DNA of 64,000 nt from Epilithonimonas bovis DSM 19482 (GCF_900108115.1 NZ_FTPU01000011.1:1-64000); one strand, 5' to 3'; positions 9,879 to 32,963 are shown, counted from the first letter of the stretch. Numbers and translations are program-made. The notes: a model not told the origin generated them from the sequence alone.

Positions 9879-10172
9879 TTAGTTGTCGTTTTGTGTGACC
9901 TTGATCCTGCCAAAACCATTTTGGTAGTATAGGCGGTTAGTAAACGTATCTCTGTAAATACTTGTATTTTCTCTGCCCAAGCTAAAACGGAATTTTTTAC
10001 CGGAGTTTCCTGTTTTTTGATTGCCCAAAAAAGCCAGTTGCTGACGGATCGACTGTACATTCTTTCTCAGATTTGTACTGTCGCTGATGAGTGAATCGGT
10101 CTTTAGAGACTGCTGAGCCACAAAAAATGGAGTGAAAATAGTAACTGCTAAAATCGTGATGATTGATTTCAT
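9879..10172 (-). CDS. Small secreted hypothetical protein
   Basis: The 97-residue product starts with a signal peptide (MKSIITILAVTIFTPFFVAQQ), then a polar domain ending in IYRDTFTNRLYYQNGFGRIKV. No family was recognised. It is the last gene of the minus-strand amidoligase cluster, 15 bp after the glutathionylspermidine-synthase-like ligase, so it may be co-transcribed, but its export argues for an unrelated role. Confidence 0.55.
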   Translation of the reverse strand: MKSIITILAVTIFTPFFVAQQSLKTDSLISDSTNLRKNVQSIRQQLAFLGNQKTGNSGKKFRFSLGRENTSIYRDTFTNRLYYQNGFGRIKVTQNDN

Positions 10173-10187
10173 GGCTTAAAAATATGT

Positions 10188-11369
10188 TTATTGTTCGAAA
10201 AAAGCCATAGAACTGCCAATCCAGATGGCGTCTTTCTTGTTAAAATCTACATTTACCATGGCCGCTTTTGTCATCCTTACCAGATTCACGAGAAGTTCCG
10301 GGTTTTCTGATTTGGGATTCCATGCAAAAAGCAAACGGATCTCTGCTTTGGAAAATTCGCCGTTGATATCTTTAAAAACCGGTGCGTAATCTACTTTGCG
10401 CTGCATGATATAGTTGTTTTTGTCCTTAATCTCATTAATGACTTCCTGAGTTGGGTTGAGATTCACACCACTGCCCGCAAAAGAAAAAAGAGGTTTCAGT
10501 ACAAAGTTTTCCAGAGATTCATTCTGAGGAAAATCGGATAAGTAATAACTTTTTGGGACAAATTCGTGCTTTAGTTTTGGCAGAATATATTTGGATATTT
10601 TGAAAAACCAGTTCGGATGGGTGACCCATTCTACGTCCACTTCTTCGCGGAAATCAAATTCGGTTTCCAGACCTTCGATCTTATCAAGCTCATCAAAAAT
10701 CACACGGTTATAGATCCGGTTGATAGGGATCAATTGTCCGTCATTTTCATAGAATAATTTTTTGCATTCTTTTTTGATTTTGGTCAGGCAAACGGTTTTG
10801 ATTCCCAGGTATTTTTCGGTGATGATAAAGTCAACTGCGGTTTTCTGTTTCTCAGGATAGATTTCCAGCAGAATCACGTTTTCTGGATTTTCGTCCCCAA
10901 CAATCACCTCTTTCAGCTTTTGGATGTATTCTTCTTTTGGAAGGCTGTTTTTAAGTGCATCCAGAAAAGGATAAACTTCAGTGATGATTTCTTCATACAA
11001 CTTCTGAAACCCAAACAGGCTGGGGAAGGCCTGCAATTCTATCAATTTCGGGACTATTTTTCCGTTCTCATCCTGGCAGATTCCAAAATCTATGGCTAAA
11101 AAGTGCGGTTTTTGCGTATCATTTGGGACGTTACAATGATTAGGGACGGCCTTTCTCAGCTCTTCTTCAGGCATCTGTTTGATTTGCGAAATGATGGACT
11201 GAGAAGCGTCATCCAGCTTTTCCCAAAAATCTTTGGTGAGGAAAATCGGGCTTTCTGATAAACGGAAAACAGATCCCTGGCCGGTTTCTTCTTTTACAAG
11301 ATCCTTGGTTTTCTGATATTTTTCTTCGGAAAATTCCTGGTTAAATTGAGATCTGTATTTTGTTATCAT
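10188..11369 (-). CDS. ATP-grasp ligase of glutathionylspermidine-synthase-like type
   Basis: The 393-residue protein has an N-terminal region with FLAIDFG (D94) and PKLIELQAFPSLFGFQ (E111), and a C-terminal ATP-binding segment NFVLKPLFSFAGSGV (K292 and the loop at 296-301). The order resembles the synthetase half of glutathionylspermidine synthase, where the metal-binding residues come before the nucleotide-binding lysine. Such enzymes join a carboxylate to an amine using ATP. It is the most downstream ligase of the cluster, 140 bp after the amidotransferase. Substrates are unknown. Confidence 0.65.
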   Translation of the reverse strand: MITKYRSQFNQEFSEEKYQKTKDLVKEETGQGSVFRLSESPIFLTKDFWEKLDDASQSIISQIKQMPEEELRKAVPNHCNVPNDTQKPHFLAIDFGICQDENGKIVPKLIELQAFPSLFGFQKLYEEIITEVYPFLDALKNSLPKEEYIQKLKEVIVGDENPENVILLEIYPEKQKTAVDFIITEKYLGIKTVCLTKIKKECKKLFYENDGQLIPINRIYNRVIFDELDKIEGLETEFDFREEVDVEWVTHPNWFFKISKYILPKLKHEFVPKSYYLSDFPQNESLENFVLKPLFSFAGSGVNLNPTQEVINEIKDKNNYIMQRKVDYAPVFKDINGEFSKAEIRLLFAWNPKSENPELLVNLVRMTKAAMVNVDFNKKDAIWIGSSMAFFEQ

Positions 11370-11510
11370 AGTTTGTGTTTGGTTGTTGGTATGTGACAGT
11401 TATTTTTTAAAATAATTCACCATTAGAATAACTTATCATAATCATCCTGATTTAACAATATATTCAGGATTTAGAGCATTAATTTTAATCTAAGATCTGA
11501 CATCTAAATT

Positions 11511-12359
11511 CTAACATCTATTCAATACCATATTTTTAGTAATTTGTTCAGCCGCAGACTGTAAAAATCTTGGGATGATTTGGGCTCTGGTCAGCACAAT
11601 CTTATCATCATCATCCATCCGGTCGATCGTTTCCAGGTATTTTTCCATCCCAAATGTTTCTACCATGGCTTCTTTGTTTTTAGGGTCTTCCAGATTTTTG
11701 ATAAAACCTATAGGATCGGCCTCCGGATGGAACTGCGTTCCGAAGATTTCATCAGAAAAACGTACTGCCATCAGGGCTCTTTCCAGATGTACATTGGGAC
11801 GGATTTTTTCCAAAGCCACCACTTTCATTCCCAGTTCATTCAATTTTTCCTGATTTGGTTCGATGCATTGATACGCTCTGGAATCTACAGCATAGAAAGG
11901 TTCGGGCAGGTTTTTGAACAAAAATTCTTTTTCGCCGTCTTCGGATTTGTGGATGGGCATCACACCAAAAGAGTAGGACTTACGCTTGCAGACATTGGCA
12001 ATCCCAAAATGAATAACCGCCAGCTGGAAAGAATGGCAGATCAAAAACGCATATTTTTTCTGATCATTATCTTTGTTATGTTGCCAAATGGTATCTAAAA
12101 ACTTAGCATATTTACCTTCCCAGATGTAGCCTTCTCTGTGCGGATTTCCTGGTCCTCCGGAAGATATAAAGATATCAAAATCTTCAATTTTGGGCATTTC
12201 AGCTTTGTAACGGACATCAAAGATATCTACAGAAACATCATAGTCTGACTGTTCCTGAAACGCTTTTGCCAGCTCTTTTATATTGCGCATCCCTTGGTTG
12301 GGATGATTGTTATTCATATCCAGAAGTGCAATTCTTACATCATTTTTAGTCATATTCAT
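11511..12359 (-). CDS. Class I glutamine amidotransferase-like protein
   Basis: The 282-residue protein has a GATase-I fold: an oxyanion strand ISSGGPGNP (66-73), a nucleophile elbow FLICHSFQLA with C108, and GTQFHPEADP with H211 and E213, so Cys, His and Glu are all present. The elbow reads ICHSFQ instead of the common GICxGxQ. Members with a full triad release ammonia from glutamine or hydrolyse gamma-glutamyl amides. It is often auto-named GMP synthase, but it lacks the synthetase domains. Between two ligase genes, it probably serves the same pathway, as ammonia donor or gamma-glutamyl remover (inference). Confidence 0.75.
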   Translation of the reverse strand: MNMTKNDVRIALLDMNNNHPNQGMRNIKELAKAFQEQSDYDVSVDIFDVRYKAEMPKIEDFDIFISSGGPGNPHREGYIWEGKYAKFLDTIWQHNKDNDQKKYAFLICHSFQLAVIHFGIANVCKRKSYSFGVMPIHKSEDGEKEFLFKNLPEPFYAVDSRAYQCIEPNQEKLNELGMKVVALEKIRPNVHLERALMAVRFSDEIFGTQFHPEADPIGFIKNLEDPKNKEAMVETFGMEKYLETIDRMDDDDKIVLTRAQIIPRFLQSAAEQITKNMVLNRC

Positions 12360-12367
12360 AATCGTCT

Positions 12368-12661
12368 TTAATAAATTGATTTTTGTTTACCATCTCTGAA
12401 GTTAATGATTACAATCTGTTTCTTTTTTGCGTTTATTTTGTAAACAATATAGTTATTCTCATCAACCATTCCTTTGTGCAGGTTTTTGAATTTTGCAGTC
12501 TTAGGATATAGATTTGGCTGCAGTTTTATCCTTTCTATGAATTGGTTAAGATGATTCTCCAGTCTCAATATTTCTTTTTCTGTCCAGTGTTGCTTAAGAT
12601 ATTCAACTGTTTTACGAAGGCCTTTTTCTGCACGTACAGTCCATATGGTTTCTATTTCCAT
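12368..12661 (-). CDS. RelE/ParE family toxin
   Basis: The 97-residue basic protein has the ParE/RelE pattern: an N-terminal strand (IETIWTVRAEKGLRKTVEYL), a helical hairpin (WTEKEILRLENHLNQFIERI), NLYPKTAKFKNLHKGMVDENNYIVYKI and a C-terminal IINFRDGKQK. RelE members cut mRNA at the ribosome and ParE members inhibit gyrase; the type cannot be decided here. Its start overlaps the antitoxin gene by 10 bp, so the two are translationally coupled. Confidence 0.8.
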   Translation of the reverse strand: MEIETIWTVRAEKGLRKTVEYLKQHWTEKEILRLENHLNQFIERIKLQPNLYPKTAKFKNLHKGMVDENNYIVYKINAKKKQIVIINFRDGKQKSIY

Positions 12662-12882
12662 TCATCAAACAATTTCATCACATCCCGGTGTGATTTTACT
12701 TGTCCATTTTCGGCATCTTTAAGTCCAACTTCGATATCCTGATGTTCTTCTTTACTCAATTCTTCCCACCAATCCTGAGATCCTTCTTGTCGAAAAATAT
12801 CTTTTATTTTTTCAAGTACACTTTCTTTTTGAGTATTTAGTAAAAGATTCATCAATTCTAATTTGGTTGCTTCTATATTCAT
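12652..12882 (-). CDS. Antitoxin of the ParE/RelE module
   Basis: This 76-residue acidic protein (MNIEATKLELMNLLLNTQKES...) precedes and overlaps the toxin gene, the standard antitoxin position. It is helical, with a C-terminal toxin-binding tail (HRDVMKLFDEWK). The ATG at 12882 is preferred over a TTG at 12888. A TAAATTTG box 14 nt upstream gives the pair its own promoter inside the amidoligase cluster. Confidence 0.75.
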   Translation of the reverse strand: MNIEATKLELMNLLLNTQKESVLEKIKDIFRQEGSQDWWEELSKEEHQDIEVGLKDAENGQVKSHRDVMKLFDEWK

Positions 12883-12896
12883 AACCAATGTTTTTG

Positions 12897-12904
12897 CAAA
12901 TTTA
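12897..12904 (-). promoter_or_regulatory. Minus-7 box (TAAATTTG) of the toxin-antitoxin pair
   Basis: The octamer fits TAnnTTTG on the minus strand, 14 nt upstream of the antitoxin ATG, so the pair can be transcribed separately from the surrounding cluster. Confidence 0.45.
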
Positions 12905-12950
12905 TAAAAAATGAAATGGTTGTTTTCCTGACAATTATCTTTAAGAAAAG

Positions 12951-14054
12951 TTACACAAGTCCTTTCTCGGTTTCATAGATCATATAATCTACTACTTTTT
13001 TCAGGTCGCCGCCTGTTTCTTCAAAGACTCTGAGTTGTCTGTCTGCTCCGGTTCCGTTTTTCACGATTTCCCGTGCGTATTCTACTTCCTTCCTGCATCC
13101 AAGATCATCCACAACATCATCAATAAAAGCTAACAATTCCTCCAACAGATCTTTATAAGGGACGCTGATTTCTTTGCCAAAATCAATCAGATGCGCATCA
13201 ATCCCGTCTTTGGAAGCACGCCATTTGTTTTCTGTCAGCAGCAATCTCCTATAGCTTCTGTAACTGGTATTTTGCTGATGCATTTTGTAAACTTTAGCCA
13301 CCAAAGCCTGCATAATTGCTGCGAGGCAAACTGTTTCGTCAATCGTCAAAGGCATATCGCAAATCCTGAATTCTATCGTTGGGTAGAACGGATGCACGCG
13401 GAGATCCCACCAGATTTTCTTGGCGTTATCGATGGTTCCGGTTTTCACCATCAGGTTGACATAAGCATCAAATTCCGCCACACTGCTGAAGTAGCTAGGC
13501 AATCCGGTTCTTGGGAATTTGGCGAAAACCTCCTGTCGATAAGATTTGAAACCCGTCAATCTTCCAACCCAAAACGGGGAATTGGTAGACAGTGCATAAA
13601 CATGCGGCAGGAAATAGCGCATCACATTCTGGATCCTGATGCCTTCTTCACGGTCAGGAATCCCAATGTGAACGTGCAATCCGAAAATCAAATTTGACCT
13701 TGCAACATCGCCCATATCTCTTACGATTTTATCATAACGAGCATCTTTTGTGATAATATTATCTTTCCAGTGCGAAAATGGATGCGTGCCACCGCCGGAA
13801 ACGCGCAAACCTTGCTCATGAGCGGTTTTTACGAGATGTCTCCTTAGGTCGGTCAACTCCTGGCGGACCTGCTGTATGTTTTCACAGATCCCCGTTTCCA
13901 TTTCCACGACTGATTCGTGCATCTCGTGTTTTAGGTTTTCGCTGAGGACGGCTTTTCCGCCTTCTATAATTTTGGAGACATGGGAAACCAAATCGCGGCT
14001 TTCGGCATCGATGATCTGGTATTCTTCCTCGACACCAATGGTGAATTTGTGCAT
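12951..14054 (-). CDS. Carboxylate-amine ligase, GCS2 family (YbdK-like)
   Basis: GCS2 enzymes (COG2170) are glutamate-cysteine-ligase-fold amidoligases that form amide bonds with ATP; YbdK has weak glutamate-cysteine ligase activity. The 367-residue protein shows the N-terminal GVEEEYQIID (7-16), an SGGGTHPFSHW segment, HVHIGIPD followed by an NVMRYFLP...LSTNSPFW stretch, and EFRICDMPLT. These are characteristic and intact. I chose the ATG at 14054 because GVEEEYQ normally lies a few residues from the start; an upstream ATG would add 31 residues reading through a repeat. In the cluster it probably makes the first or a branch amide bond (inference). Confidence 0.85.
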   Translation of the reverse strand: MHKFTIGVEEEYQIIDAESRDLVSHVSKIIEGGKAVLSENLKHEMHESVVEMETGICENIQQVRQELTDLRRHLVKTAHEQGLRVSGGGTHPFSHWKDNIITKDARYDKIVRDMGDVARSNLIFGLHVHIGIPDREEGIRIQNVMRYFLPHVYALSTNSPFWVGRLTGFKSYRQEVFAKFPRTGLPSYFSSVAEFDAYVNLMVKTGTIDNAKKIWWDLRVHPFYPTIEFRICDMPLTIDETVCLAAIMQALVAKVYKMHQQNTSYRSYRRLLLTENKWRASKDGIDAHLIDFGKEISVPYKDLLEELLAFIDDVVDDLGCRKEVEYAREIVKNGTGADRQLRVFEETGGDLKKVVDYMIYETEKGLV

Positions 14055-14109
14055 TTTTTTTCTTGTGTTAGTTAAGTTAGTAGTGTAAGTTTTGCAATGT
14101 TTTTGTAAC

Positions 14110-14214
14110 AGCGAATGGCAAAGCAGCCCGGCCTGAGTGAAGCTCATTTTTTTTGCTTTGAAGTGAGGCTGGCAAAAAAATAGCGGGAACGGAGGACGGA
14201 TTAGCTGCCCAAAA
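14110..14214. repeat. GC-rich dispersed repeat, related copy (AGCCCGGCCTGAG type)
   Basis: This non-coding segment between the GCS2 and ATP-grasp genes contains CAGCCCGGCCTGAGTGAAGC, TAGCGGGAACGGAGGACGGA and TTAGCTGCCC. Its reverse complement matches 26984-27147 in several blocks (CTAATCCG, CGGGCTGC, the ATTCGCT/ATTTGCT end) and shares a weaker layout with the repeats at 4992 and 50434. It interrupts the operon with about 160 bp. Confidence 0.5.
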
Positions 14215-14216
14215 AA

Positions 14217-15167
14217 TTAAAGTTTATTGGTTACAAATGTTCCCCATTCGATATTGATTTTGCCGGGTTTGTAGCCTTTTGCTTTCTCAATTGCGAGTTT
14301 TGCGGCGTGTTCTACAATCCATTGGAAATTTTCTTCGCCCACCGAATTCCGGTCTGCATCCGGTGCAGGATTGCAAAAATCTATAGCGTAAGGGATACCG
14401 TCTCTCACAGCAAATTCTACCGTATTGAAATCATAGCCCAACGCTTCATTCATCTTGAGGGTGTAGTCGGTAATGGTTTTCAATAATTTTTCGAGTTCTT
14501 TGCCTTCGGTTTTGTGAGTGGTTGCGTAGCGCAGAGGATGAGGGTTTCTTGGTTCGTAAGGCATAATGTGGACATATTTTCTGCCCAGGCAATATACTCT
14601 GTAATAATCCTCGAAAACGATCTCTTCCTGTACCATCATTACCAATTGCTCTGTTTCTGCGTGTTTTGCCCACATATCTTCGGGGCTCTCTACACGATAA
14701 ACATTGCGCCAGCCACCACCGTCGTGAGGTTTCATATAAGCTGGGAAACCGATGTAATTGAAGATGTACTCCCAATCGTGAGGGAATTTTAGGTTTCTGA
14801 AAGACGTTTCCGTAGTATTGGTTGGTCTCTCGTGAGAAGGCAGCAAAACGGTTTTCGGAAGCGGAATTCCGATTTTTGACATCAACGCGTTGTTGAAGAA
14901 TTTCTCATCTGCGCTCCACCAGAATGGATTATTAATAACATAAGTCCCGTTAACAGCAGCATTTTTAAGATAAGCCCTGTAGAAAGGCACATCCTGCGAA
15001 ATCCGGTCGATGATGACAGCGTAGCCATAATCTGCGCCTTGCTCCAGTTTGTCGATCATTACCGGTTCTGCGATATATTCCCCTTTGCCGAGTTCATTCA
15101 CTTTATCGATAAAAGCCCAAGGGAAAGTGTCCTCCATCCCGAATAAGATTCCAATTTTTTTTGCCAT
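14217..15167 (-). CDS. ATP-grasp ligase (RimK-like fold)
   Basis: The 316-residue protein has an N-terminal pre-ATP-grasp domain and ATP-grasp core motifs: FPAYMKPHDGGGWRNVYRV (K146, loop 148-153), MMVQEEI in the hinge, and GYDFNTVEFAVRDG...AIDFCNPAPD with E251, D263 and N266 as probable metal ligands. ATP-grasp enzymes activate a carboxylate as acyl-phosphate and couple it to an amine or thiol. It lies between the GCS2 ligase and an esterase on the same strand. The substrates are unknown. Confidence in the fold is high; confidence in a pathway role is moderate. Confidence 0.8.
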   Translation of the reverse strand: MAKKIGILFGMEDTFPWAFIDKVNELGKGEYIAEPVMIDKLEQGADYGYAVIIDRISQDVPFYRAYLKNAAVNGTYVINNPFWWSADEKFFNNALMSKIGIPLPKTVLLPSHERPTNTTETSFRNLKFPHDWEYIFNYIGFPAYMKPHDGGGWRNVYRVESPEDMWAKHAETEQLVMMVQEEIVFEDYYRVYCLGRKYVHIMPYEPRNPHPLRYATTHKTEGKELEKLLKTITDYTLKMNEALGYDFNTVEFAVRDGIPYAIDFCNPAPDADRNSVGEENFQWIVEHAAKLAIEKAKGYKPGKINIEWGTFVTNKL

Positions 15168-15312
15168 AATGTTTTGTTTTTTGGTCAGAAGTCCGATGTT
15201 GGATATCTGAAGTTTGTATGTTTATTTTATTAATTTAAAACTATTGTCTCATGGATTAAGTTGTTTTTTTATATTTTAAATTTGCTAAATCACTAAAATC
15301 TGCGAGAGATTA

Positions 15313-15337
15313 TTATTGATTGATTGATTGATTGATT
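15313..15337. repeat. Simple tandem repeat (TGAT)n
   Basis: About five to six uninterrupted TGAT units end at the stop codon of the esterase gene. Such a tract can change length by slippage, but here it only touches the 3' end of the gene. Confidence 0.8.
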
Positions 15338-16050
15338 TACCCGAAAAACCTTCCAATAAATTTCGGGAAAACCATTCTCCAAAGCACCCAATCGTGATCT
15401 ATCCATTTTTGCTCATCATACCAGTGATTAATTCCTTTTGATGTTAAGATGCCCGCCATTTTCCTGGTTGGTTCCAGGCAAATGTCGCCGTCCGAAGTGC
15501 TGAGTACAATATGCATATGCTTATATTTCCAGGCTTCATCATTCTTCACGAATTCATCCGGACAATTGAAATAAATCAGCTGATCCTGATAGCCGTCCAT
15601 AAAATTCCGGATGTTAAAAGCACCAGACAGACAGAAAAGATGTGAAACCAAATCTGGAAATCTAAACGCAAAATTTGCTGCGTGATAACCACCAAAACTT
15701 GCGCCTGCAACAGCTACACGATGTGTGTTATGCGTTCTTTGGATATAAGGAATGAACTCCTGAACCAAAAACTGAACATACATTTCGTAATTTCTAATTC
15801 TTTCGTAAGGAGAAATTCCTTTGTCATAAAAACTGAATTTATCAATCGTCTGAACATTGAATAATTTCAAAATGCCATTGTCTGTGAAATGGGAAATACT
15901 TCCGTTAAGATGAAAATCTGCGTTCTGGGTATAAGAACCCTGCGAAGTCGGAAACATAATTATGGGATAACCGAAATGACCGGTAACCTCCAGCGGAAGG
16001 CTCATCCCAAGAATATGTGAATAATAATCTGTATGTATAATCTGAGGCAT
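15337..16050 (-). CDS. Esterase-type alpha/beta hydrolase (COG4947-like)
   Basis: The 237-residue cytoplasmic protein (no signal peptide) carries a nucleophile elbow AGASFGGYHA, an acid segment LSTSDGDICLE and a catalytic-histidine segment WIDHDWVLWRMVFP, so a Ser-Asp-His triad is plausible. It resembles predicted esterases of the enterochelin-esterase-like group. It lies between two ATP-grasp genes and is probably a tailoring or proof-reading hydrolase of that pathway (inference). Confidence 0.75.
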   Translation of the reverse strand: MPQIIHTDYYSHILGMSLPLEVTGHFGYPIIMFPTSQGSYTQNADFHLNGSISHFTDNGILKLFNVQTIDKFSFYDKGISPYERIRNYEMYVQFLVQEFIPYIQRTHNTHRVAVAGASFGGYHAANFAFRFPDLVSHLFCLSGAFNIRNFMDGYQDQLIYFNCPDEFVKNDEAWKYKHMHIVLSTSDGDICLEPTRKMAGILTSKGINHWYDEQKWIDHDWVLWRMVFPKFIGRFFG

Positions 16051-16143
16051 ATGTTTTTTATAAATGATAATTGATGAATGATTTCTCTTTCAAGATCGTT
16101 AAGTTGACATTGTTGTCAGGCTGAAGCTCTCGAAGCTCACAGA

Positions 16144-17349
16144 TTAGCTGGTTGGTTTTTCTTTTGGTGGTAAAATGTTCAGGATTTGCTCTGTTACAAT
16201 TTGTGCAGCCTCATCCAGCCGTTGCTGTATTTTGTCTGCGCTATCCGATTGGTAAACAATACCGATATGATAATCTATAGGAAGAAATTTGACCACTTCA
16301 GGGTTTTCCAAGATGCTTGTGTCAGGATGTTTTTCTTTGGCCAGAGCTACAATTAAGCCTGCAAAACGATGTTGCGATTCTTCTACTTTATAGCTTCGAG
16401 AATCTAAAAGCGCATTTTCCAGCTTTGCCCATTCTCGCCAGATATTGACGCCGGTTGCCGCTTCTACCATATCGGGAATGTGGGCACCGCCAACTCTTGA
16501 TGACGTTTCAAGGAAATAATATTGTCCGTCAATTCCTCTGATATATTCGCTGTGAGTTGCGCCGTTCTGAATCCCGAATTTTGTTAGAACTTCTTTGTTG
16601 ATTTTTTCCAAACCTTTTGCTTCGTCCGAATTTTTATCCAGGGTTTTGGTACGGAAAACGCCGCCTTCGTGAGAGACCTTCATTGGCGGAGAAAGGTATT
16701 TTGAAAAACACGAAAATACGATCTCCTTGTTGTAAACCAAACAATCTACGTGATAGACATCGCCGGGTTTGAAGGCTTCCAGAAGAAATTTATAACGCTC
16801 ATCACCAAGACTTTCCACTGCAGGCCAGAGCTCTTCTACCGAATTAATTTTCTTGATGCCGCTTGCGGACGCTTCGGAACGAGGTTTCAGAACCCACGGA
16901 CCGGGAACGTCCTGCGTGAATTTGTGAAGTTTTTCATCATTGAAAATCGAGGAAAATTCCGGTACAGAGATCCCATTGTCTTTGGCTTGCTGGCGCATGG
17001 CCAGTTTATCCCGGAAATAGCGGTACGTTGTCTGTCCCATCCCGGGAATCCGGTAGGTTTCACGGATCATCGCCGCTTTTTCCACATCGTAATCGTCCAG
17101 AGCGATCACCGCATCTATCTGATGATTTTTCATGAGGTAAGCAAAGCCCTGAACCAGTTGATCGAGGTTCCAGACGGACGGTTCGAGCTCCGGCATATAA
17201 TATATTTCATCTATGGCGTGCCACGGCCACGGTTTTTCTTTCAGGTTTTCCGAAGTAATGAGAATGACTTTGTCACCGAGTTTTTTGCACTCGTCCATAA
17301 AATCGTAACCTTTATAATAGCAGGAGATGCAGACAATCGTTTTTTCCAT
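16144..17349 (-). CDS. ATP-grasp ligase (carnosine-synthase / biotin-carboxylase-like)
   Basis: The 401-residue protein has a Rossmann-like N-terminus (MEKTIVCISCYYKG; AVIALDDYDVEKAAMIRE), a linker with MGQTTYRYFRDKLAMRQQAKDNGI typical of carboxylate ligases, the ATP-binding segment GPWVLKPRSEASASGI (K155) and metal-binding THSEYI (E268) and FLETSSRVGG (E281, R285). This layout is that of amino acid ligases such as carnosine synthase and bacilysin-type BtrJ/LAL enzymes. It is the third ATP-grasp enzyme of the cluster and the most likely to join two amino acids. Substrates are not visible. Confidence 0.8.
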   Translation of the reverse strand: MEKTIVCISCYYKGYDFMDECKKLGDKVILITSENLKEKPWPWHAIDEIYYMPELEPSVWNLDQLVQGFAYLMKNHQIDAVIALDDYDVEKAAMIRETYRIPGMGQTTYRYFRDKLAMRQQAKDNGISVPEFSSIFNDEKLHKFTQDVPGPWVLKPRSEASASGIKKINSVEELWPAVESLGDERYKFLLEAFKPGDVYHVDCLVYNKEIVFSCFSKYLSPPMKVSHEGGVFRTKTLDKNSDEAKGLEKINKEVLTKFGIQNGATHSEYIRGIDGQYYFLETSSRVGGAHIPDMVEAATGVNIWREWAKLENALLDSRSYKVEESQHRFAGLIVALAKEKHPDTSILENPEVVKFLPIDYHIGIVYQSDSADKIQQRLDEAAQIVTEQILNILPPKEKPTS

Positions 17350-17351
17350 AA

Positions 17352-17630
17352 TTAAATTTTTTCGTTTCTTAATAAGATTTCAAAGCCTTCATCTGCAGTA
17401 TCTACGACGTAAATTTTATTTTCTTCGAAATAGAATTCTTTATACTCATTTAATAATTCCACTAAGTCGATTTTGTTTTCTCGAATAATCTTTAAGATTT
17501 CAATCTTTTTCTCCATTGTAGTTTGATTGTATTGACTTGAATTTGGGTCAAATAATGTTCTCAAAGTTCTATGTTTCCAAAGATTTCCTTTCGAAAATAT
17601 TTTGTCTAATTTCTGTTGGTAATGCATCAT
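17352..17630 (-). CDS. Hypothetical protein, second gene of an unknown pair
   Basis: The 92-residue Lys/Glu-rich protein (MMHYQQKLDKIFSKGNLWKH...) has no recognised domain. Its start overlaps the stop of the upstream gene by 4 bp, and it ends 2 bp before the ATP-grasp gene, so it is part of a tight polycistron. It is visibly richer in AT than its cluster neighbours, hinting at later insertion. Confidence 0.55.
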   Translation of the reverse strand: MMHYQQKLDKIFSKGNLWKHRTLRTLFDPNSSQYNQTTMEKKIEILKIIRENKIDLVELLNEYKEFYFEENKIYVVDTADEGFEILLRNEKI

Positions 17631-18196
17631 TTTGGATTGTAAACATTAAAAAATTCAAATTCATCAACAATGGGGAAGTTTCCTGTGTTTTTTTCTCTAT
17701 GTCTTATCTGATATTGTAAGTAAGTTTCATAATCTGAAATTTTGCTCCACGGTTTAGGTTTTTTTTCTTCAAACATTCCTTTCTGTACAAAACTGTCAAT
17801 TGGAATATGGAAATATTTTGCATTAAGTTCAATTCCACTAATTCTATTTTCTCCAAAAAGCAACCAATACTTAAGTGTCATATTAATCCATTTTTGAGCT
17901 TGTCCAAAAGAAAGTTCATTCCAGATTTTAGTTAGTTCTTCTGCGGTGTATTTATGAAAATTATCGAATTCTTCTTGATTTTCTAGTTTATTTCTAGTTA
18001 GCTTATACAGATTTTCGTGTAAAAAAAATTCTGCGGATTTCTTTAATTCTAAACGATTTTTATCCTTTATTCTTAATGTTCTGCTAAAATCCAAAAAAGC
18101 TCTTTTTATTCCAGCGCTGTAAAAACCATTTTTTGTATCAAAGAAAAGCCTTATATAAAAATCTTCCCTTAAACTTTCTTTTATAATTGTCTCCAT
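17627..18196 (-). CDS. Hypothetical protein, first gene of an unknown pair
   Basis: This 189-residue soluble protein has no family I can name. Its features are a basic N-terminal half, a conserved-looking FGQAQKWINMTLKYWLLFG segment near residues 113-131 and an FHIPIDSFV segment near 143-151, then W-S-K-I-x-D-Y-E. The 4-bp overlap with the next small gene and 3-bp gap after the M17 gene show one transcript. Its base composition is more AT-rich than the flanking ligases. The pair could be an accessory insertion or an unrecognised two-component module. Confidence 0.55.
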   Translation of the reverse strand: METIIKESLREDFYIRLFFDTKNGFYSAGIKRAFLDFSRTLRIKDKNRLELKKSAEFFLHENLYKLTRNKLENQEEFDNFHKYTAEELTKIWNELSFGQAQKWINMTLKYWLLFGENRISGIELNAKYFHIPIDSFVQKGMFEEKKPKPWSKISDYETYLQYQIRHREKNTGNFPIVDEFEFFNVYNPK

Positions 18197-18199
18197 TTT

Positions 18200-19603
18200 C
18201 TAATAATTTTCAATTAAATCTAACAAAAGCTGAACGCCATAACCAGTCGCCGCTTTATCTTTAGCATAACCAACATTACCAAATGCAACGCCCGCAATAT
18301 CCAGATGTGCCCAGTTGGGATGGTCTTCTATAAACTGCTCCAAGAATTTCCCGGCAATAATGCAATCGCCAAAAGGCTTCATCGAGATGTTTTTGAAATC
18401 TGCCACATCCGAAGCAAAATCATCTTTCCATACATCCCAAAGCGGAAGATTCCAAAGCCGCTGATTGGTTTTATCCGCAGATTTTTCCAGCTTGATTTTC
18501 AAATCATTATTGTTGGAAAAATACGCACCGCAAGTATAACCGAACATTCTTACTGAGCTTCCCGTCAAAGTCGCCAAGTCTATCAAAACATCAGTTTTAT
18601 AATTTTTTGACAAGTAAGAAAGTCCGTCTGCTAATGTCATTCTTCCTTCTGCATCGGTGTTTAGAACTTCAATTGTTTTTCCGTTGTAAGCCGTCACAAC
18701 ATCGCTCGGCAAGTACGCATTTTCCGATACAGCATTATCAGTAATCGGAAGAATAGCGATGATATTGACTTGAAGCTTGAGTTCTGAAGCTGTAATCAAA
18801 GCTCCAATGACTGCGCTTGCACCGCCCATATCACTTTTCATGTAATGCATATTGTCAGATGGTTTGATGGAAATCCCTCCAGTATCAAACAAAACGCATT
18901 TCCCTACCAATCCGAAGGTTTTAGCATCATCTTTTCCGCAATTGTATTCCAAAATTGTAAAAGATGCTTCCTGTGAACTTCCTTGATTCACAGCAACAAA
19001 CGCACCTAAACCTTCTTTAATTGATTCTTCTCTGTTGAATGATTTATACTTTAAACTATATTTTTCTGCAGTCGATTTCAGAAAATCTGAAATCTGATTT
19101 ACTTTTTTATGGTTGGCAGGTTTGTTCAGCCATTCCATTCCGGCAAATTGTCCGTTGCAAAGCGCTGCTGTTTTTAAAGCTAAATTTTTTCCTTCTTCTT
19201 CAGAAATATTTTCAAAATGAAGTTCAAAATTCTCCTGCCAAAACGGATGCGATTTTTCAAAAGGGTAGAGGTAAGTTCCCAAAAACAGACCTTTCACAAA
19301 TTCTTCCGTCAAATCCAATCCTAACTTTGAATGAACCGAAGTTGGAACTGCCTGCAGATTTTTTTTATAATCATTTGCAAATTTGTTGGCAATCGCTTGT
19401 ATTTCGAATCCTTTTGAATCTTTCCCAATTCCAATGAAAAAGCTAATTTCATCTGGATTTGTTTTAATAAAAACTTCGTTCTTTTTTCCATTGAAGAATA
19501 ATTCAACATTCGGATGCGAGCTTTTTTCCTGTTCCCAATCGTCTTCGCTGAACAGATATATATTTTGAGTTGTTGATTCTTTTTTATTGTAAATTTTAAT
19601 CAT
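18200..19603 (-). CDS. M17 family leucyl aminopeptidase
   Basis: M17 enzymes are hexameric two-metal aminopeptidases; some also cleave Cys-Gly. The 467 residues include FDTGGISIKPSDNMHYMKSD (Lys and Asp metal/catalytic ligands) and NTDAEGRMTLADGL, the family signature, with the usual DLATLTG strand after it. Length is normal. The N-terminal domain is divergent from PepA. It is the second gene of the amidoligase cluster, so it may trim or recycle the cluster's peptide-like product; a housekeeping role is the alternative. Confidence 0.85.
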   Translation of the reverse strand: MIKIYNKKESTTQNIYLFSEDDWEQEKSSHPNVELFFNGKKNEVFIKTNPDEISFFIGIGKDSKGFEIQAIANKFANDYKKNLQAVPTSVHSKLGLDLTEEFVKGLFLGTYLYPFEKSHPFWQENFELHFENISEEEGKNLALKTAALCNGQFAGMEWLNKPANHKKVNQISDFLKSTAEKYSLKYKSFNREESIKEGLGAFVAVNQGSSQEASFTILEYNCGKDDAKTFGLVGKCVLFDTGGISIKPSDNMHYMKSDMGGASAVIGALITASELKLQVNIIAILPITDNAVSENAYLPSDVVTAYNGKTIEVLNTDAEGRMTLADGLSYLSKNYKTDVLIDLATLTGSSVRMFGYTCGAYFSNNNDLKIKLEKSADKTNQRLWNLPLWDVWKDDFASDVADFKNISMKPFGDCIIAGKFLEQFIEDHPNWAHLDIAGVAFGNVGYAKDKAATGYGVQLLLDLIENY

Positions 19604-19683
19604 AGTTTTTATAAGTTTTGGCTAAAACCAAATCTGATTTTTAATTCTTGATCGGGCTTCCTTCGACTTTGCTCAGGATGACG

Positions 19684-20814
19684 TTACCCGACATTATTGC
19701 TGTTATTTTCCAATTCATTTTTTGCTTTTACCGGGCTTTCCAAACTGTCGATGTAGAGCCATTCTACAGCTCTGGGGAACTCCTGGGACCAGAAAAATTC
19801 CTGATGCGTGCCTTTGTCATTGATGCTGGTTTTGACTTCAAAATCAAAAAGTTTCTGCAACTCCCATTTTTTCAGAGATTTTTCAAACAATCTTATTCTG
19901 CCTACCATTCGGGAGCCTTCCAGACGGCCTCCGTAGAGATAAACCTTGATCTTATAAGGATTACTGAATGACATCAGCGGGAAATTATTATCCGGTTCCA
20001 CCCAAAGTGACGGCGAAAAAATCAACAGTTTGGAATAGACTTCCGGATAAAGAAATCCTCCATAAATACTTATCAATCCGCCCAAAGAGCTTCCGCCAAT
20101 CCCGGTATTTTCCCGGTCTTTCTTCGTTCTGTAGTTTTTATCGATCCATGGTTTCAAAGTATCGGTAATAAATCTCAGATACTTTTTGCCTTCTGCACTC
20201 TCTGTAACATCCTCGTTGTCAAAAATGTACTCTTTGATACGGTCATCTTCGCCGTGTTCTACTGCGATAACTATCAACTCGCCACGGCCATATTCTGCCA
20301 GGAGCGCCAGTTTTTTATCAATTTCCCAATTGCCATACGCTGAACCGTTGTTGAAAAGATTCTGTGCATCCTGCAAATAGAGAACAGGATATTGTGCATC
20401 TGACTCATAATAATCATGCGGCAGAAGCGCCCAAACCTTCCTCGTTTTATCGAGTTGAGGGATGTAAAATTCTTCATTTACCAATTCCACAATCGGGAAA
20501 AATTCTTTTTTGAACGGTCCCCAGTTCAGTCGCCATTTTTCTACAACGTCCTGTGTTTTCTGTTGGGTTTTGGTTACAGTTCTGTTGGGCGTGATGTTAT
20601 CATATCTGTCAATTTCCACATTTTCCCAGCCACCTTTTGTGAATTTATATTCAATATTGTCATTCAATAATTCATCAGCGATGTTGATATAATAATGACT
20701 GTCATCTAATTGTTCCAGTTTAAATTTTGAATCTTTTGGATTCCATTTGTTAAAATTACCTGTGATAAAGACGGCTCGTTCATCATTGTCTTCTGATGTC
20801 AGAAAAAATTCCAT
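19684..20814 (-). CDS. Esterase with N-terminal CBM48/E-set domain (COG2819-like)
   Basis: The 376-residue protein begins with an Ig-like E-set domain of the AMPK/CBM48 type (AVFITGNFNKWNP...YYINIADELLNDNIEYKFTKGGWENVE, about residues 13-65), then an IroE/enterochelin-esterase-like alpha/beta hydrolase: WALLPHDY, LYLQDAQNLFN, nucleophile elbow GIGGSSLGGL, and a C-terminal GTHQEFFWSQEFP histidine segment. No signal peptide is present, so it is cytoplasmic. It is the first gene of the cluster on the minus strand. The E-set domain might bind a sugar or simply shape the active site. Confidence 0.78.
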   Translation of the reverse strand: MEFFLTSEDNDERAVFITGNFNKWNPKDSKFKLEQLDDSHYYINIADELLNDNIEYKFTKGGWENVEIDRYDNITPNRTVTKTQQKTQDVVEKWRLNWGPFKKEFFPIVELVNEEFYIPQLDKTRKVWALLPHDYYESDAQYPVLYLQDAQNLFNNGSAYGNWEIDKKLALLAEYGRGELIVIAVEHGEDDRIKEYIFDNEDVTESAEGKKYLRFITDTLKPWIDKNYRTKKDRENTGIGGSSLGGLISIYGGFLYPEVYSKLLIFSPSLWVEPDNNFPLMSFSNPYKIKVYLYGGRLEGSRMVGRIRLFEKSLKKWELQKLFDFEVKTSINDKGTHQEFFWSQEFPRAVEWLYIDSLESPVKAKNELENNSNNVG

Positions 20815-28204: not shown

Positions 28205-29047
28205 TTACTCAAAAACCTCAAAATCTTCTCCGTCAAAACTGGCAAAAACCATGGTAGGATAAGAATCCTGATGGTAAACGGTCCCCTCTGAATCAATACC
28301 AATAGCGCCGGCAAATCCGTCAATCTGTTTAAGTTCTTCAAAGGTTCTGTCAAAAGCATTTTCTATCGAGAGGCCATCTGTAACCCGTGTTACAATTTTT
28401 GCCGCGGTTGCATTGCTCACGATATCTTCGCCAACGCCGGTGCAGCTCACAGCACAATATTGATTGGCGTAATTTCCTGCAACGGTGGCAGAATCGGAGA
28501 TTCTGCCCGGGATTTCAAAACCTTTACCGCCTGTGGATGTTGCAACGGCCAATTTGCCTTCCTTATCAATCGCGACAGCGCCAACCGTCCCTTTGCCTCC
28601 GGACTTTATTTTATCTTCATATTCCTTTCTACGCTGAGGGATTTCAGTCGAAAAATTTTGGAACCCATGTTGTTCGGCATATTCTTTAGCTCCTTTTCCT
28701 CCCAGGATTCGGTCATCCTCGTTGATGAGCTCTTTTGCCACAAAAACCGGATTTTTCACATCCTGAATATTGATAACACCACTCATTTTTTGCGTTTCGC
28801 CGTTCATGATGGCCGCACTCATTCTTATCACACCATCACTCTGGATTTGAGAACCAATCCCAGCATTATAGAGCTCATCATCTTCCAGTAATGATACCGC
28901 ATAAGCCACAGTGTCAAACGCCGAATTGTCTTTCAAAAACTCAAAGGCTTTTTTAGCAATAGCTTTTAATGAGTTTTGTTTTGCCAGTTTCACGTCGTGG
29001 CTTTGGCTGCTTTCGGAGAAAAATCCGCCGTGGATGATTATTTTCAT
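28205..29047 (-). CDS. iaaA: Isoaspartyl peptidase / plant-type L-asparaginase
   Basis: Ntn-hydrolases of this family split beta-Asp-Arg dipeptides and asparagine after self-cleavage before a threonine. The 280-residue protein shows IIHGG at the start, YNAGIGSQIQSDG, the autocleavage site GGKGTVGAVAID with nucleophile T154, and STGGKGFEIPGRISDSATVAGNYA for substrate binding. It lies 96 bp after cyanophycinase on the same strand, so it would turn the beta-Asp-Arg released by CphB into Asp and Arg. The gene symbol is by analogy. Confidence 0.88.
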   Translation of the reverse strand: MKIIIHGGFFSESSQSHDVKLAKQNSLKAIAKKAFEFLKDNSAFDTVAYAVSLLEDDELYNAGIGSQIQSDGVIRMSAAIMNGETQKMSGVINIQDVKNPVFVAKELINEDDRILGGKGAKEYAEQHGFQNFSTEIPQRRKEYEDKIKSGGKGTVGAVAIDKEGKLAVATSTGGKGFEIPGRISDSATVAGNYANQYCAVSCTGVGEDIVSNATAAKIVTRVTDGLSIENAFDRTFEELKQIDGFAGAIGIDSEGTVYHQDSYPTMVFASFDGEDFEVFE

Positions 29048-29143
29048 TGGATGGAGTTTAAATTTTTATAGGGTCTTCTAGAACTTTAGGCTCACATTTT
29101 TTTTGTGAAATTGATATTCTAAATGGGACAATACAGATCAACT

Positions 29144-30040
29144 TCAGTCTTCAGGATTCACCTGAGGGATGGGATTATATTGCGAATTAACAATAGTCAT
29201 TTCTCTGGTTTTGAGATCAAAAGTATCATTCATAGACAAAACATCCACAATCATATTTTTGATGGAAATAGGCTGTCCCAACTCGATATTAGTAAGATTG
29301 GTATCTTTGATCTGTAGGCCATCCACGATAATTACAAGGCCGGAACCAATAGCGGTCATTTTATCATCATCAATAAAAAGCCCGGTGTCTTCTCCAAGGC
29401 CGATTCCTAATGTTCTCGGATTGTTCACAACCGCTTGGAAAAGCCTTCCGATTCTGCCGCGCTGTACAAAATGCGTGTCAATAATCACATTCTCTATAAA
29501 ACCAAGGCCTTGCGTTGTTTTGATTTCGCCCTTTAACAAGGCTTCGGAACTGGAACCCTGATAGATCATATTTTCAGAAGCCGCCGCTGCTCCGGCAGAA
29601 GTTCCGGCATAGATAAAATCTTCGGTTTGGTATTTGGTCAGAATAGCATCGTGGAATCTTGTTCCACCGAGGATAGAGGTTAAACGGAGCTGGTCGCCAC
29701 CTGTAAACATCACCACATCTGCCGCGCTAACTCTGGCTACAATAGCATCGCTATTGGCCTGCTCACGGTTTTGGATATTCAGGATGTTGCAGTTTTTGTT
29801 GCCGAGATATTCAAATGCTTTCTTGTATTCCGGCCCCACAATATCAGGGATCTGCGAAGCGGTCGTAATAACTTCTATAACAGAATTTTCTTTTTTCTTA
29901 GACTCATCAATGATTTTTCTGAGGATTCCTCTTTCAAAAAAGTTGAGGTTTTTTTCAACATTTTGGTCATAACTGATTTCTGTAAAACTTCCTTTGTTTA
30001 CAGCACCGCCAATGATGACTAGTTTTCCTTTTGATTTCAT
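29144..30040 (-). CDS. cphB: Cyanophycinase
   Basis: CphB is a serine exopeptidase (family S51) that degrades cyanophycin to beta-Asp-Arg dipeptides. The 298-residue protein has LVIIGGAVNKG at the start, MFTGGDQLRLTS, the nucleophile S148 in YAGTSAGAAAAS, and IDTHFVQRGRIGRL with the catalytic His region. It lacks a signal peptide and so acts in the cytoplasm on stored polymer. It is divergent from cphA; a TATTTTTG box ends 5 nt before its ATG. Confidence 0.92.
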   Translation of the reverse strand: MKSKGKLVIIGGAVNKGSFTEISYDQNVEKNLNFFERGILRKIIDESKKKENSVIEVITTASQIPDIVGPEYKKAFEYLGNKNCNILNIQNREQANSDAIVARVSAADVVMFTGGDQLRLTSILGGTRFHDAILTKYQTEDFIYAGTSAGAAAASENMIYQGSSSEALLKGEIKTTQGLGFIENVIIDTHFVQRGRIGRLFQAVVNNPRTLGIGLGEDTGLFIDDDKMTAIGSGLVIIVDGLQIKDTNLTNIELGQPISIKNMIVDVLSMNDTFDLKTREMTIVNSQYNPIPQVNPED

Positions 30041-30045
30041 ATTAA

Positions 30046-30053
30046 CAAAAATA
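30046..30053 (-). promoter_or_regulatory. Minus-7 box (TATTTTTG) of cphB
   Basis: The minus-strand octamer fits TAnnTTTG and ends 5 nt before the cphB ATG, predicting a leaderless transcript. Confidence 0.5.
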
Positions 30054-30241
30054 GCAAATCATTACAGAATAAGGCTTTCTAAAAAGGAAAAATCACAAAT
30101 AATAATTCAAAATTTCATCTTTTTACATCTCATTTGTATAAATAATTATACAGATTAATATATTTTTAAAAATCATAAGTCAACAATGAAAGATACTTGT
30201 GATCATGCAATATTTATTTCCGATTTAATTACATTTTGCAT

Positions 30242-30249
30242 TATCTTTG
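30242..30249 (+). promoter_or_regulatory. Minus-7 box (TATCTTTG) of cphA
   Basis: The octamer fits TAnnTTTG. Transcription would start near 30255, giving a leader of about 85 nt that includes the hairpin at 30286-30313. Confidence 0.5.
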
Positions 30250-30285
30250 ATAAAGTTGATGGATCAAGTGACCATTATCTGTCCT

Positions 30286-30320
30286 AACCTTGGATATTTC
30301 TGATACCGAGGTTTTTATTA
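30286..30320 (+). promoter_or_regulatory. Terminator-like hairpin in the cphA leader
   Basis: Arms 30286-30293 (AACCTTGG) and 30306-30313 (CCGAGGTT) pair over 8 bp with one G-U, followed by a short T run, and end about 22 nt before the cphA ATG. It could act as an attenuator or protect the mRNA end. This is a fold seen by eye, not tested. Confidence 0.4.
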
Positions 30321-30341
30321 TCAACCATCTTCTGACTACAT

Positions 30342-32963
30342 ATGAAAATAGAAAAAATTCAGGTTCTGAGAGGGCCTAATATCTGGAGCATCACCCGAAA
30401 AAAACTCATCCAGATGCGTCTGGATCTGGAAGAGACAGAGCATACACCAACCAATAAAATCCCGGGATTTAGGGAAAGGATAGAGACGCTTTTGCCATCA
30501 ATGTACACCCACCGATGTTCCGAAGGTACAGAAGGTGGATTTTTTAAACGCGTGGAGATGGGAACATGGATGGGGCATGTGATAGAGCATATTGCACTGG
30601 AAATCCAAACGCTGGCAGGGATGGATGTTGGTTTTGGAAGAACCCGTGAGACCAAAACACCGGGAACTTATAATGTTGTGTTTAATTATATCGAGGAAAG
30701 TGCAGGTGTCTACGCAGCAGAGGAAGCGGTAAAAATCGCAGAATCATTGATGAACGCAACGGATTATGACATCAATGCCTGCATCCAGACACTGAAAGAG
30801 ATCCGTGAACGCGAAAGGCTGGGCCCTTCCACCGGAAGTATTGTAGAGGAAGCGGCCTCCAGAAAAATCCCGTGGATCAGATTGGGGAAAAACTCATTGG
30901 TACAATTAGGTTACGGAATCAATCAGCAGCGTTTTCAGGCAACTATCACAGGTAACACCAGTTGTATTGCGGTGGATATTGCCTGCAACAAAGAACTGAC
31001 AAAAAAAATGTTGGAAGATGCAGCCATCCCTGTACCTTCCGGAGACTTGGTGCTGGATGAAGAAGGCTTGCAACGGGTGATTAAGAAAATAGGCTATCCG
31101 CTTGTGCTGAAACCGCTGGACGGGAATCATGGGAAAGGTGCTTCTATTAATGTAAAAGATTATGAAACGGCTCTGGTAGGATTAGAGCACGCTCAAAAAT
31201 ACTCCAGAAAAGTGATTGTAGAAAAATACATTACGGGGTATGATTTCCGGGTGCTGGTGATTGATCATCGGATGGTTGCTGCTGCAAGGCGTGTTCCCGC
31301 CCATGTGATGGGCGATGGTGAGCTTAATCTTCAGCAACTCATAGATAAAGAAAATGAAGACCCAAGAAGAGGCTATGGCCATGAAAATGTTCTGACAGAA
31401 ATAGAGGTAGACAAAGATACCAATGAATTGCTCGCAAAACTTAATTATACCTTAGAAACAGTTCCGCAAAAAGGCGAAATTGTGTACCTTAAATCTACGG
31501 CTAACCTCTCCACAGGCGGGACGTCAATTGATGTGACAGATATGATTCACCCCGAGAATATCCAGATGGCAGAGCGTATCTCCAGAATAATAGGTTTGGA
31601 TGTCTGCGGTATCGATATTATGGCGGAAAATCTTACTCAGCCACTAAAAGAAAGTGGCGGCGCCATCCTGGAAGTGAATGCGGCTCCCGGTTTCCGGATG
31701 CATCTGGCGCCAAGCGAAGGTTTGCCAAGAAACGTAGCCGCGCCGGTGGTGGACATGCTTTATCCACCGGGAAAAGAATTCAGGATTCCGATTATTGCTT
31801 TGACGGGGACCAACGGGAAAACTACTACTACAAGGCTCTTGGCGCATATTGTGAAAAATAATGGCAAACGGGTTGGTTTTACCACTTCGGACGGGATCTA
31901 TATCCACAACACACTGCTTGAAAGAGGCGATACAACAGGACCTTTGTCTGCTGAATTTATCCTGAAAGACCCGACGGTTGAATTCGCAGTGCTGGAAACC
32001 GCACGAGGCGGAATCCTGCGTTCGGGGCTTGGATTTGGAACCTGTGATATTGGCGTTTTAACGAATATCAAAGAAGATCACCTGGGGATCAGCGATATCC
32101 ATAACCTGAAGGATTTGACCCGTGTAAAAAGAGTGGTGCTGGACAGCGTGAAAAAAGATGGCTGGTGTATCCTGAATGCCGATGATGACTATTCTATGAG
32201 GATTATGAACGACCTGCATTCTAAGGTGGCATTATTCAGCCTGGATGAAAATAATCCGCATATCAAAAAATTTGCGAAAGAAGGCAAGGTAACCTGTGTA
32301 TACGAAGAAGGATTTGTGACCATCAAAAAAGGAGAATGGAAAATCAGGATCGAGCGCGTTAAGAATATTCCGATTACCATGGACGGCAAAGCCAGATTTA
32401 TGATTGCGAACGTTTTAGCAGCATCTTTGGCGGCTTATGTTTATGGGTTTGAGATTCCTAATATTGCATTGGCGCTCACCACTTTTATCCCAAGTGCACA
32501 GTTGACGCCGGGCAGGCTGAATGTCTTTAATTTTAAAAATTTCAAAGTCATGATTGACTTTGCCCACAATCCTGCAGGCTATGAAGCGATTGAAGATTAT
32601 CTGAAAAATGTAGAATCAAACAAAAAAATAGGTATTATCTCCGGCGTTGGTGACCGGCGCGACAGTGATATCCGTGAGTGTGGTAAAATTGCTGCAAGGA
32701 TGTTTGATCATATCATCATCCGCAACGAGAAACATCTTAGGGGCCGTACAGAGGATGAGATCAATGGGTTGATTATTGATGGGATCCACAGCTCCGGGAA
32801 TAATGTGAGTTATGAGATTATCCCAAAAGAGATTGATGCCCTTAAGCATGCCATGAGCCTGGCAGAGGAAGGCACTTTTATTACTGCGCTGAGTGATGTG
32901 ATTAATAATGCTATAGAAATCGTTCAGGAATATCAGGCCAGAGAACTGTTGGATGAACAGTGA
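30342..32963 (+). CDS. cphA: Cyanophycin synthetase
   Basis: CphA builds cyanophycin, a poly-aspartate backbone with arginine side chains, using two ATP-dependent activities. The 873-residue protein has the N-terminal domain (1-160, with WMGHVIEHIALEIQTLAG), an ATP-grasp domain (about 200-470, KPLDGNHGKGASI and EVNAAPGFRMH) and a Mur-ligase-like domain (about 480-870) with P-loop ALTGTNGKTTTTRLL. All parts are intact and length is typical. Divergent cphB and iaaA complete a synthesis-recycling module, storing nitrogen and carbon inside the cell. Confidence 0.95.
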   Translation: MKIEKIQVLRGPNIWSITRKKLIQMRLDLEETEHTPTNKIPGFRERIETLLPSMYTHRCSEGTEGGFFKRVEMGTWMGHVIEHIALEIQTLAGMDVGFGRTRETKTPGTYNVVFNYIEESAGVYAAEEAVKIAESLMNATDYDINACIQTLKEIRERERLGPSTGSIVEEAASRKIPWIRLGKNSLVQLGYGINQQRFQATITGNTSCIAVDIACNKELTKKMLEDAAIPVPSGDLVLDEEGLQRVIKKIGYPLVLKPLDGNHGKGASINVKDYETALVGLEHAQKYSRKVIVEKYITGYDFRVLVIDHRMVAAARRVPAHVMGDGELNLQQLIDKENEDPRRGYGHENVLTEIEVDKDTNELLAKLNYTLETVPQKGEIVYLKSTANLSTGGTSIDVTDMIHPENIQMAERISRIIGLDVCGIDIMAENLTQPLKESGGAILEVNAAPGFRMHLAPSEGLPRNVAAPVVDMLYPPGKEFRIPIIALTGTNGKTTTTRLLAHIVKNNGKRVGFTTSDGIYIHNTLLERGDTTGPLSAEFILKDPTVEFAVLETARGGILRSGLGFGTCDIGVLTNIKEDHLGISDIHNLKDLTRVKRVVLDSVKKDGWCILNADDDYSMRIMNDLHSKVALFSLDENNPHIKKFAKEGKVTCVYEEGFVTIKKGEWKIRIERVKNIPITMDGKARFMIANVLAASLAAYVYGFEIPNIALALTTFIPSAQLTPGRLNVFNFKNFKVMIDFAHNPAGYEAIEDYLKNVESNKKIGIISGVGDRRDSDIRECGKIAARMFDHIIIRNEKHLRGRTEDEINGLIIDGIHSSGNNVSYEIIPKEIDALKHAMSLAEEGTFITALSDVINNAIEIVQEYQARELLDEQ

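Follow-up and report, generated by a model that had tools for sequence, protein, structure and literature searches.

A conserved Bacteroidota gene set of ATP-grasp and GCS2-type ligases predicted to build a small amide or short-peptide metabolite

Do the eight enzyme genes that lie in a row on one strand of Epilithonimonas bovis DSM 19482 DNA belong to one system, and what would such a system make? An earlier note, based on the window alone (the whole stretch of 64,000 nucleotides that was analysed), had placed eight enzyme genes here, and all were found on the minus strand between positions 10188 and 20814. Family tests, together with fold comparison for G and J, supported their labels: three ATP-grasp ligases, a YbdK/GCS2 ligase, an enzyme of the class-I glutamine amidotransferase (GATase) fold, an M17 aminopeptidase, and two PF00756 esterases. 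Read 5′ to 3′ on the minus strand, the order is A, B, two ORFs, E, F, G, H, a ParE-like pair, I, and J; the intergenic gaps along the A-to-J row are all less than 170 bases and operon-like. The features are:

Gene A, 19684..20814, minus strand: PF00756 esterase (85 bits), part of module A-B-E.
Gene B, 18200..19603, minus strand: M17 leucyl-aminopeptidase-type metallopeptidase (PF00883, 337 bits).
Two overlapping ORFs, 17352..18196, minus strand: 189 and 92 aa, between B and E.
Gene E, 16144..17349, minus strand: ATP-grasp ligase (PF13535, 31 bits; cut-off 27).
Gene F, 15337..16050, minus strand: small PF00756 esterase (40 bits), adjoining G.
Gene G, 14217..15167, minus strand: ATP-grasp enzyme of the RimK/LysX/Ddl fold, unnamed family; marker of the system.
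Gene H, 12951..14147, minus strand: GCS2/YbdK-type carboxylate-amine ligase (PF04107, 227 bits).
ParE-like toxin-antitoxin pair, 12368..12888, minus strand: PF05016 (24 bits), between H and I.
Gene I, 11511..12359, minus strand: class-I glutamine amidotransferase-fold enzyme (PF00117, about 44 bits).
Gene J, 10188..11369, minus strand: 393 aa, ATP-grasp enzyme of the glutathione synthetase/GspS/YgiC fold.
Cyanophycin set, 28205-32963, same window: synthetase on the plus strand, cyanophycinase and plant-type asparaginase on the minus strand.

The host genome (3.35 Mb) is of the Weeksellaceae type, and its nearest named loci are from Epilithonimonas and Chryseobacterium. The active-site residues, described in the earlier note as intact, were found to be conserved across all eight families (33 to 132 homologues per family). 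The gene list of that note held for the eight enzymes and passed over the ParE-like pair and the 189- and 92-aa ORFs inside the cluster, both of which are lineage-specific insertions outside the pathway. The ParE-like pair, which had no defence-family match, was detected in some members of the genus at about 75 to 87% identity and was absent in others. The two ORFs had no match in Pfam, NCBIfam, PADLOC, or PHROGs, nor by tblastn in any other locus compared; they represent either a recent insertion or a fast-evolving pair and lie outside the conserved unit. A small secreted ORF (9879-10172), taken earlier as the last gene of the row, was not conserved along with the cluster when the loci around G were searched by tblastn.

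The ligases were related to known enzymes to different degrees. G displayed only weak matches to the RimK/LysX profiles of Pfam and NCBIfam and did not pass the RimK cut-off (TIGR00768, 30 bits versus 143.4); its predicted structure (pLDDT 82) matched LysX, ArgX, RimK, and D-Ala ligases, and residues K146, E251, and N266 were conserved among its homologues. H was over the cut-offs of PF04107 (227 versus 21 bits), PRK13515 (538 versus 371), and TIGR02050, with YbdK-like proteins as its best solved relatives. E passed the ATP-grasp_4 cut-off (PF13535, 31 bits versus 27), and its nearest solved relatives were L-amino acid ligases (PDB 4wd3, 5e-16; BL00235, 5e-11); judged by this domain and these relatives, E is nearest to the L-amino acid ligase-type ATP-grasp enzymes and is predicted to form dipeptides.

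J had no Pfam or NCBIfam match. Its AlphaFold model (pLDDT 87.8, from 27 sequences) matched YgiC, YjfC, GspS, and glutathione synthetases over the full length (VIA Z about 24-25), including YgiC (7uk8) at a VIA Z of 25.4 over 342 residues and 3.5 Å, while Foldseek returned 3n6x as the best match (4.5e-15) and a profile search of the PDB returned YgiC as the sole match (E 0.013). The label of GSP-synthase-like that J had been given is, thus, correct at the fold level (VIA Z 24-25) and is not backed by a family-profile match. The fold of J does not fix its substrate, since YgiC is without Gsp synthase activity (PMC12506659) and Cp1B, a fungal ligase of similar fold, couples a dicarboxylate to amino acids (PMC12568646). 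In 11 loci, G was flanked by c26, a 450-residue circularly permuted ATP-grasp protein that is nearest to PF14403/PF04174 and under cut-off. J was absent from all of those genomes, and c26 therefore probably replaces it; when the profiles of c26 and J were compared, the hhalign probability was 3%, with the alignment spanning the ATP-binding part.

Among the remaining enzymes, A retains its nucleophile (in GGSSLGG), H337, and E299 in 33 homologues, and has an N-terminal region that by eye resembles CBM48/E-set domains. The conserved residues of B are K235, D240, K247, D258, D317, E319, and R321, and those of F are S118, D189, and H219 (93 sequences). A further PF00756 esterase family, c6, is divergent from F in many Cytophagales and adjoins E in several distant genomes; the generic nature of PF00756 esterases counts against assigning them to one pathway. 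I scored 43.6 bits with PF00117 (versus 22.8) and has a Cys-His-Glu triad (C108, H211, and E213) that is conserved in 96 sequences, and it is predicted to be a hydrolase or an amidotransferase. In three loci, an M29 aminopeptidase was found between H and J at the place of I, in genomes without I, which is a hint that I acts as a hydrolase on a peptide or amide bond rather than feeding ammonia. In family f17, I sits away from the core and, as judged by eye in eight loci, often near an M24-type peptidase.

Gene order around G was compared across 80 named loci and about 60 further ones. This comparison revealed two modules, A-B-E (esterase, M17 peptidase, and amino-acid ligase) and F-G-H-I-J (esterase, ATP-grasp, GCS2, GATase, and ATP-grasp), with median gaps of less than 50 bases within the latter. 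F-G-H-I-J was collinear in Weeksellaceae, Maribacter-like Flavobacteriaceae, Dyadobacter, Roseivirga, and Cyclobacteriaceae, and variants of this order were present in Saprospiraceae. In the loci compared, fusion of the two modules was limited to Weeksellaceae, where A-B-E lies upstream of F-G-H-I-J; elsewhere they were apart, with A-B-E forming a nearby operon on the opposite strand in Winogradskyella and Polaribacter (three loci) and lying at other places in other genomes. A adjoins B-E in Weeksellaceae, in these three loci, and in four more. Of the Weeksellaceae-type loci with enough flank, all 29 had G accompanied by B, E, and H, and 28 of 29 had it accompanied by F, I, and J; among the 37 remaining named loci, 35 had H, I, and J close to G and 36 had F there. 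The genes cluster far beyond chance. In family f5, the order was F-G-I-J or G-I-J, with H absent genome-wide in the four genomes tested. An amidohydrolase-like family, c56 (identified by eye), was seen repeatedly next to H or J, in five loci of distant lineages, and is possibly a further pathway member. The earlier idea of one eight-gene system, therefore, needs to be divided: a core keeps its synteny in Flavobacteriia, Cytophagia, and Saprospiria, while the eight genes form two modules that are joined only in Weeksellaceae.

Co-occurrence was examined in an evenly spread sample of 395 Bacteroidota genomes. G was present in 127, a count that leaves out seven matches at ≤40% identity and one borderline match. 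J was detected in 114 genomes, 110 of which also had G, and E (orthologue threshold of at least 286 bits) in 80, every one of them with G; E was missing from 47 of the 127 G-bearing genomes, and three of these had neither J nor E. In a hand-picked set of 80 genomes, H was found in 43 of 44 that had G and in 1 of 36 that lacked it (the single case at 36% identity), while I was found in none of the 36. Fisher tests gave 2e-73 for G/J, 1e-50 for G/E, and 2e-20 for G/H, with genomes treated as independent and shared ancestry ignored. In many distant genomes, G, H, J, and E are on separate contigs or kb to tens of kb apart, so linkage does not account for their co-occurrence. The phylum-wide core is thus G+H+J, and about 60% of the genomes with G have E in addition. 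No fixed complete gene set emerges, since H (in five G-bearing genomes beyond f5 among those tested), E, and I (in many G-bearing genomes) are each missing in places; the missing members fit replacement or a branched pathway, and also a looser association. In the two apparent replacements, c26 for J and the M29 aminopeptidase for I, the type of chemistry is retained, which speaks for a single pathway. Distant G homologues at seven loci (32-40% identity) were found in other gene contexts, in genomes that lack orthologues of J and E, and are perhaps a related subfamily with another role. Carriage of G on a mobile element was considered and rejected, with zero matches to G in 72,556 plasmids.

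The search for the gene set over related genomes, on which the earlier note had staked its proposal, found the genes kept together, and co-occurring even when dispersed. It is conceivable that the row holds several unrelated functions that are merely side by side in Weeksellaceae, as A-B-E and F-G-H-I-J are separate in other lineages; however, E never occurs without G in the 395 genomes and H accompanies G while dispersed, and we regard such an assortment as very improbable. A common amide- or peptide-forming role is instead well supported, because both synteny and co-occurrence in dispersed form point to it. This agrees with the role first proposed for the locus, although its phylum-wide core is G+H+J and not all eight genes.

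The strength of selection also bears on the function. Between the host genome and four relatives, dN/dS ranged from 0.011 to 0.083, which indicates purifying selection and was lowest for G and H; G was 93-97% identical in 23 of 23 genomes of the genus, and mirror-tree correlations were compatible with plain vertical descent. The dN/dS values and the identity of G speak for a housekeeping role, and the pathway looks like conserved housekeeping metabolism rather than a niche biosynthetic cluster. That the most constrained proteins are G and H could also be expected if the enzymes tag proteins or modify their side chains, with G adding amino acids in the manner of RimK, whose target is ribosomal protein S6, and with the remaining ligases and peptidases extending and removing the tag. 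G has the fold of RimK and LysX, LysX and ArgX work on a carrier protein, and the pairing of ligases with peptidases would suit a writer-eraser scheme. Yet the unit includes no conserved carrier or target gene, and the median gaps of F-G-H-I-J are less than 50 bases; furthermore, G scores just 30 bits where the RimK cut-off is 143, and E and J resemble small-molecule enzymes. Protein tagging is, on this balance, unlikely. No recurrent small gene that could serve as a graspetide precursor was detected among mechanically called ORFs of at least 80 aa, with median gaps around G of less than 50 bases.

The flanking genes raised a connection to storage polymers. In Chryseobacterium, the cluster lies between glgCAB and cphA-cphB-asparaginase in most of the loci compared (L057-L079), and cyanophycin synthetase, cyanophycinase, and asparaginase are encoded in the window analysed here, which could mean that the eight genes are accessory to cyanophycin or glycogen metabolism. 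CphA was over cut-off in 46 genomes, however, only about half of which had G, one Weeksellaceae genome has CphA without the cluster, and the neighbourhood is confined to one lineage. An accessory role in polymer storage is accordingly given very little credence. An obligate link to cyanophycin was considered as well and was rejected, as CphA does not track G.

With moderate confidence, we favor a conserved pathway in the cytosol whose product would be a small amide or short peptide, assembled independently of the ribosome and of NRPS. The ATP-grasp and GCS2 folds catalyse amide formation through acyl phosphates. G, H, and J would form the core of this pathway, each using ATP to turn a carboxylate into an acyl phosphate for coupling to an amine, and all the enzymes would serve one common product. 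In the presumed order of steps, H, as a GCS2-type ligase that is most likely glutamyl-transferring, would add a glutamyl or similar acyl group, and J (glutathione-synthetase-type) and G (RimK/LysX-type) would attach further units. E, the predicted L-amino-acid ligase, may supply or add a dipeptide unit in the roughly 60% of G-bearing genomes that have it, whereas I (if a hydrolase), the M17 or M29 aminopeptidase, and the PF00756 esterases may trim, deprotect, or recycle intermediates. The product is perhaps gamma-glutamyl, an assignment favored because a GCS2 enzyme is paired with a ligase of the glutathione-synthetase fold.

The same pairing is the recipe for glutathione, and S-formylglutathione hydrolase belongs to PF00756, as do the two esterases. 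The genes might accordingly make a glutathione-like low-molecular-weight thiol, with H forming gamma-glutamyl-cysteine or an analogue, J completing the tripeptide, and the esterases resembling S-formylglutathione hydrolase. A role as the main cell thiol is disfavored, because the genome has BshC, a marker of bacillithiol, and the main thiol is thus already provided. Such a thiol would also leave G and E unexplained, H is absent from some genomes, and YgiC, which comes closest to J in fold, has no Gsp synthase activity (PMC12506659); taken together, a thiol product appears improbable.

Since the gene set is kept together, or at any rate within one genome, over a large part of Bacteroidota under strong selection, the small amide or peptide metabolite made by the favored pathway is probably an important one. 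Present in about a third of the sampled Bacteroidota, the pathway almost certainly makes something that the cell needs. We raise tentatively, and with more doubt than conviction, that this is a so far undescribed small metabolite, widespread in a large part of Bacteroidota and built by three to four ligases of different type; it could be a cofactor, an osmolyte, or a peptide with a protective role. If true, its place in these bacteria would be as fundamental as that of glutathione elsewhere. The near-perfect co-occurrence provides four genes (G, H, J, and E) as a short list for metabolite discovery, and the locus offers a natural setting for the substrates of two poorly understood ligase families, the YbdK-type GCS2 and the YgiC-type ATP-grasp enzymes.

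When compared with known systems, H resembles the YbdK-type carboxylate-amine ligases (PDB 1r8g and 1tt4), being over the PF04107, TIGR02050, and PRK13515 cut-offs, and differs in its setting with G and J. The L-amino acid ligases (PDB 4wd3; BL00235, PDB 3vot; DdaF) are the closest characterised relatives of E; however, E is far under every NCBIfam cut-off and is accompanied by an M17 peptidase and an esterase. J shares its whole-length fold with YgiC/YjfC, glutathionylspermidine synthetase, and eukaryotic-type glutathione synthetase (PDB 7uk8, 2ioa, and 2hgs), but at 10-15% identity and without an amidase domain. The N-acetylglutaminylglutamine amide osmolyte pathway makes a small peptide by means of an ATP-grasp enzyme, an amidotransferase, and a peptidase. 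The cluster is alike in outline, and differs from it in being without an acetyltransferase and without an asparagine-synthetase-type amidotransferase. No description of the gene set was found in the literature searched. A 2009 survey by Iyer et al. reportedly covered ATP-grasp/GCS2 amidoligase gene neighbourhoods, and the likeness of the cluster to these lies in the presence of several amide ligases, non-ribosomal and differing in fold, that are linked to unrelated peptidases. Mixed clusters of amidoligases and peptidases are, thus, of a known kind, and the exact gene set described here may already be listed in the survey.
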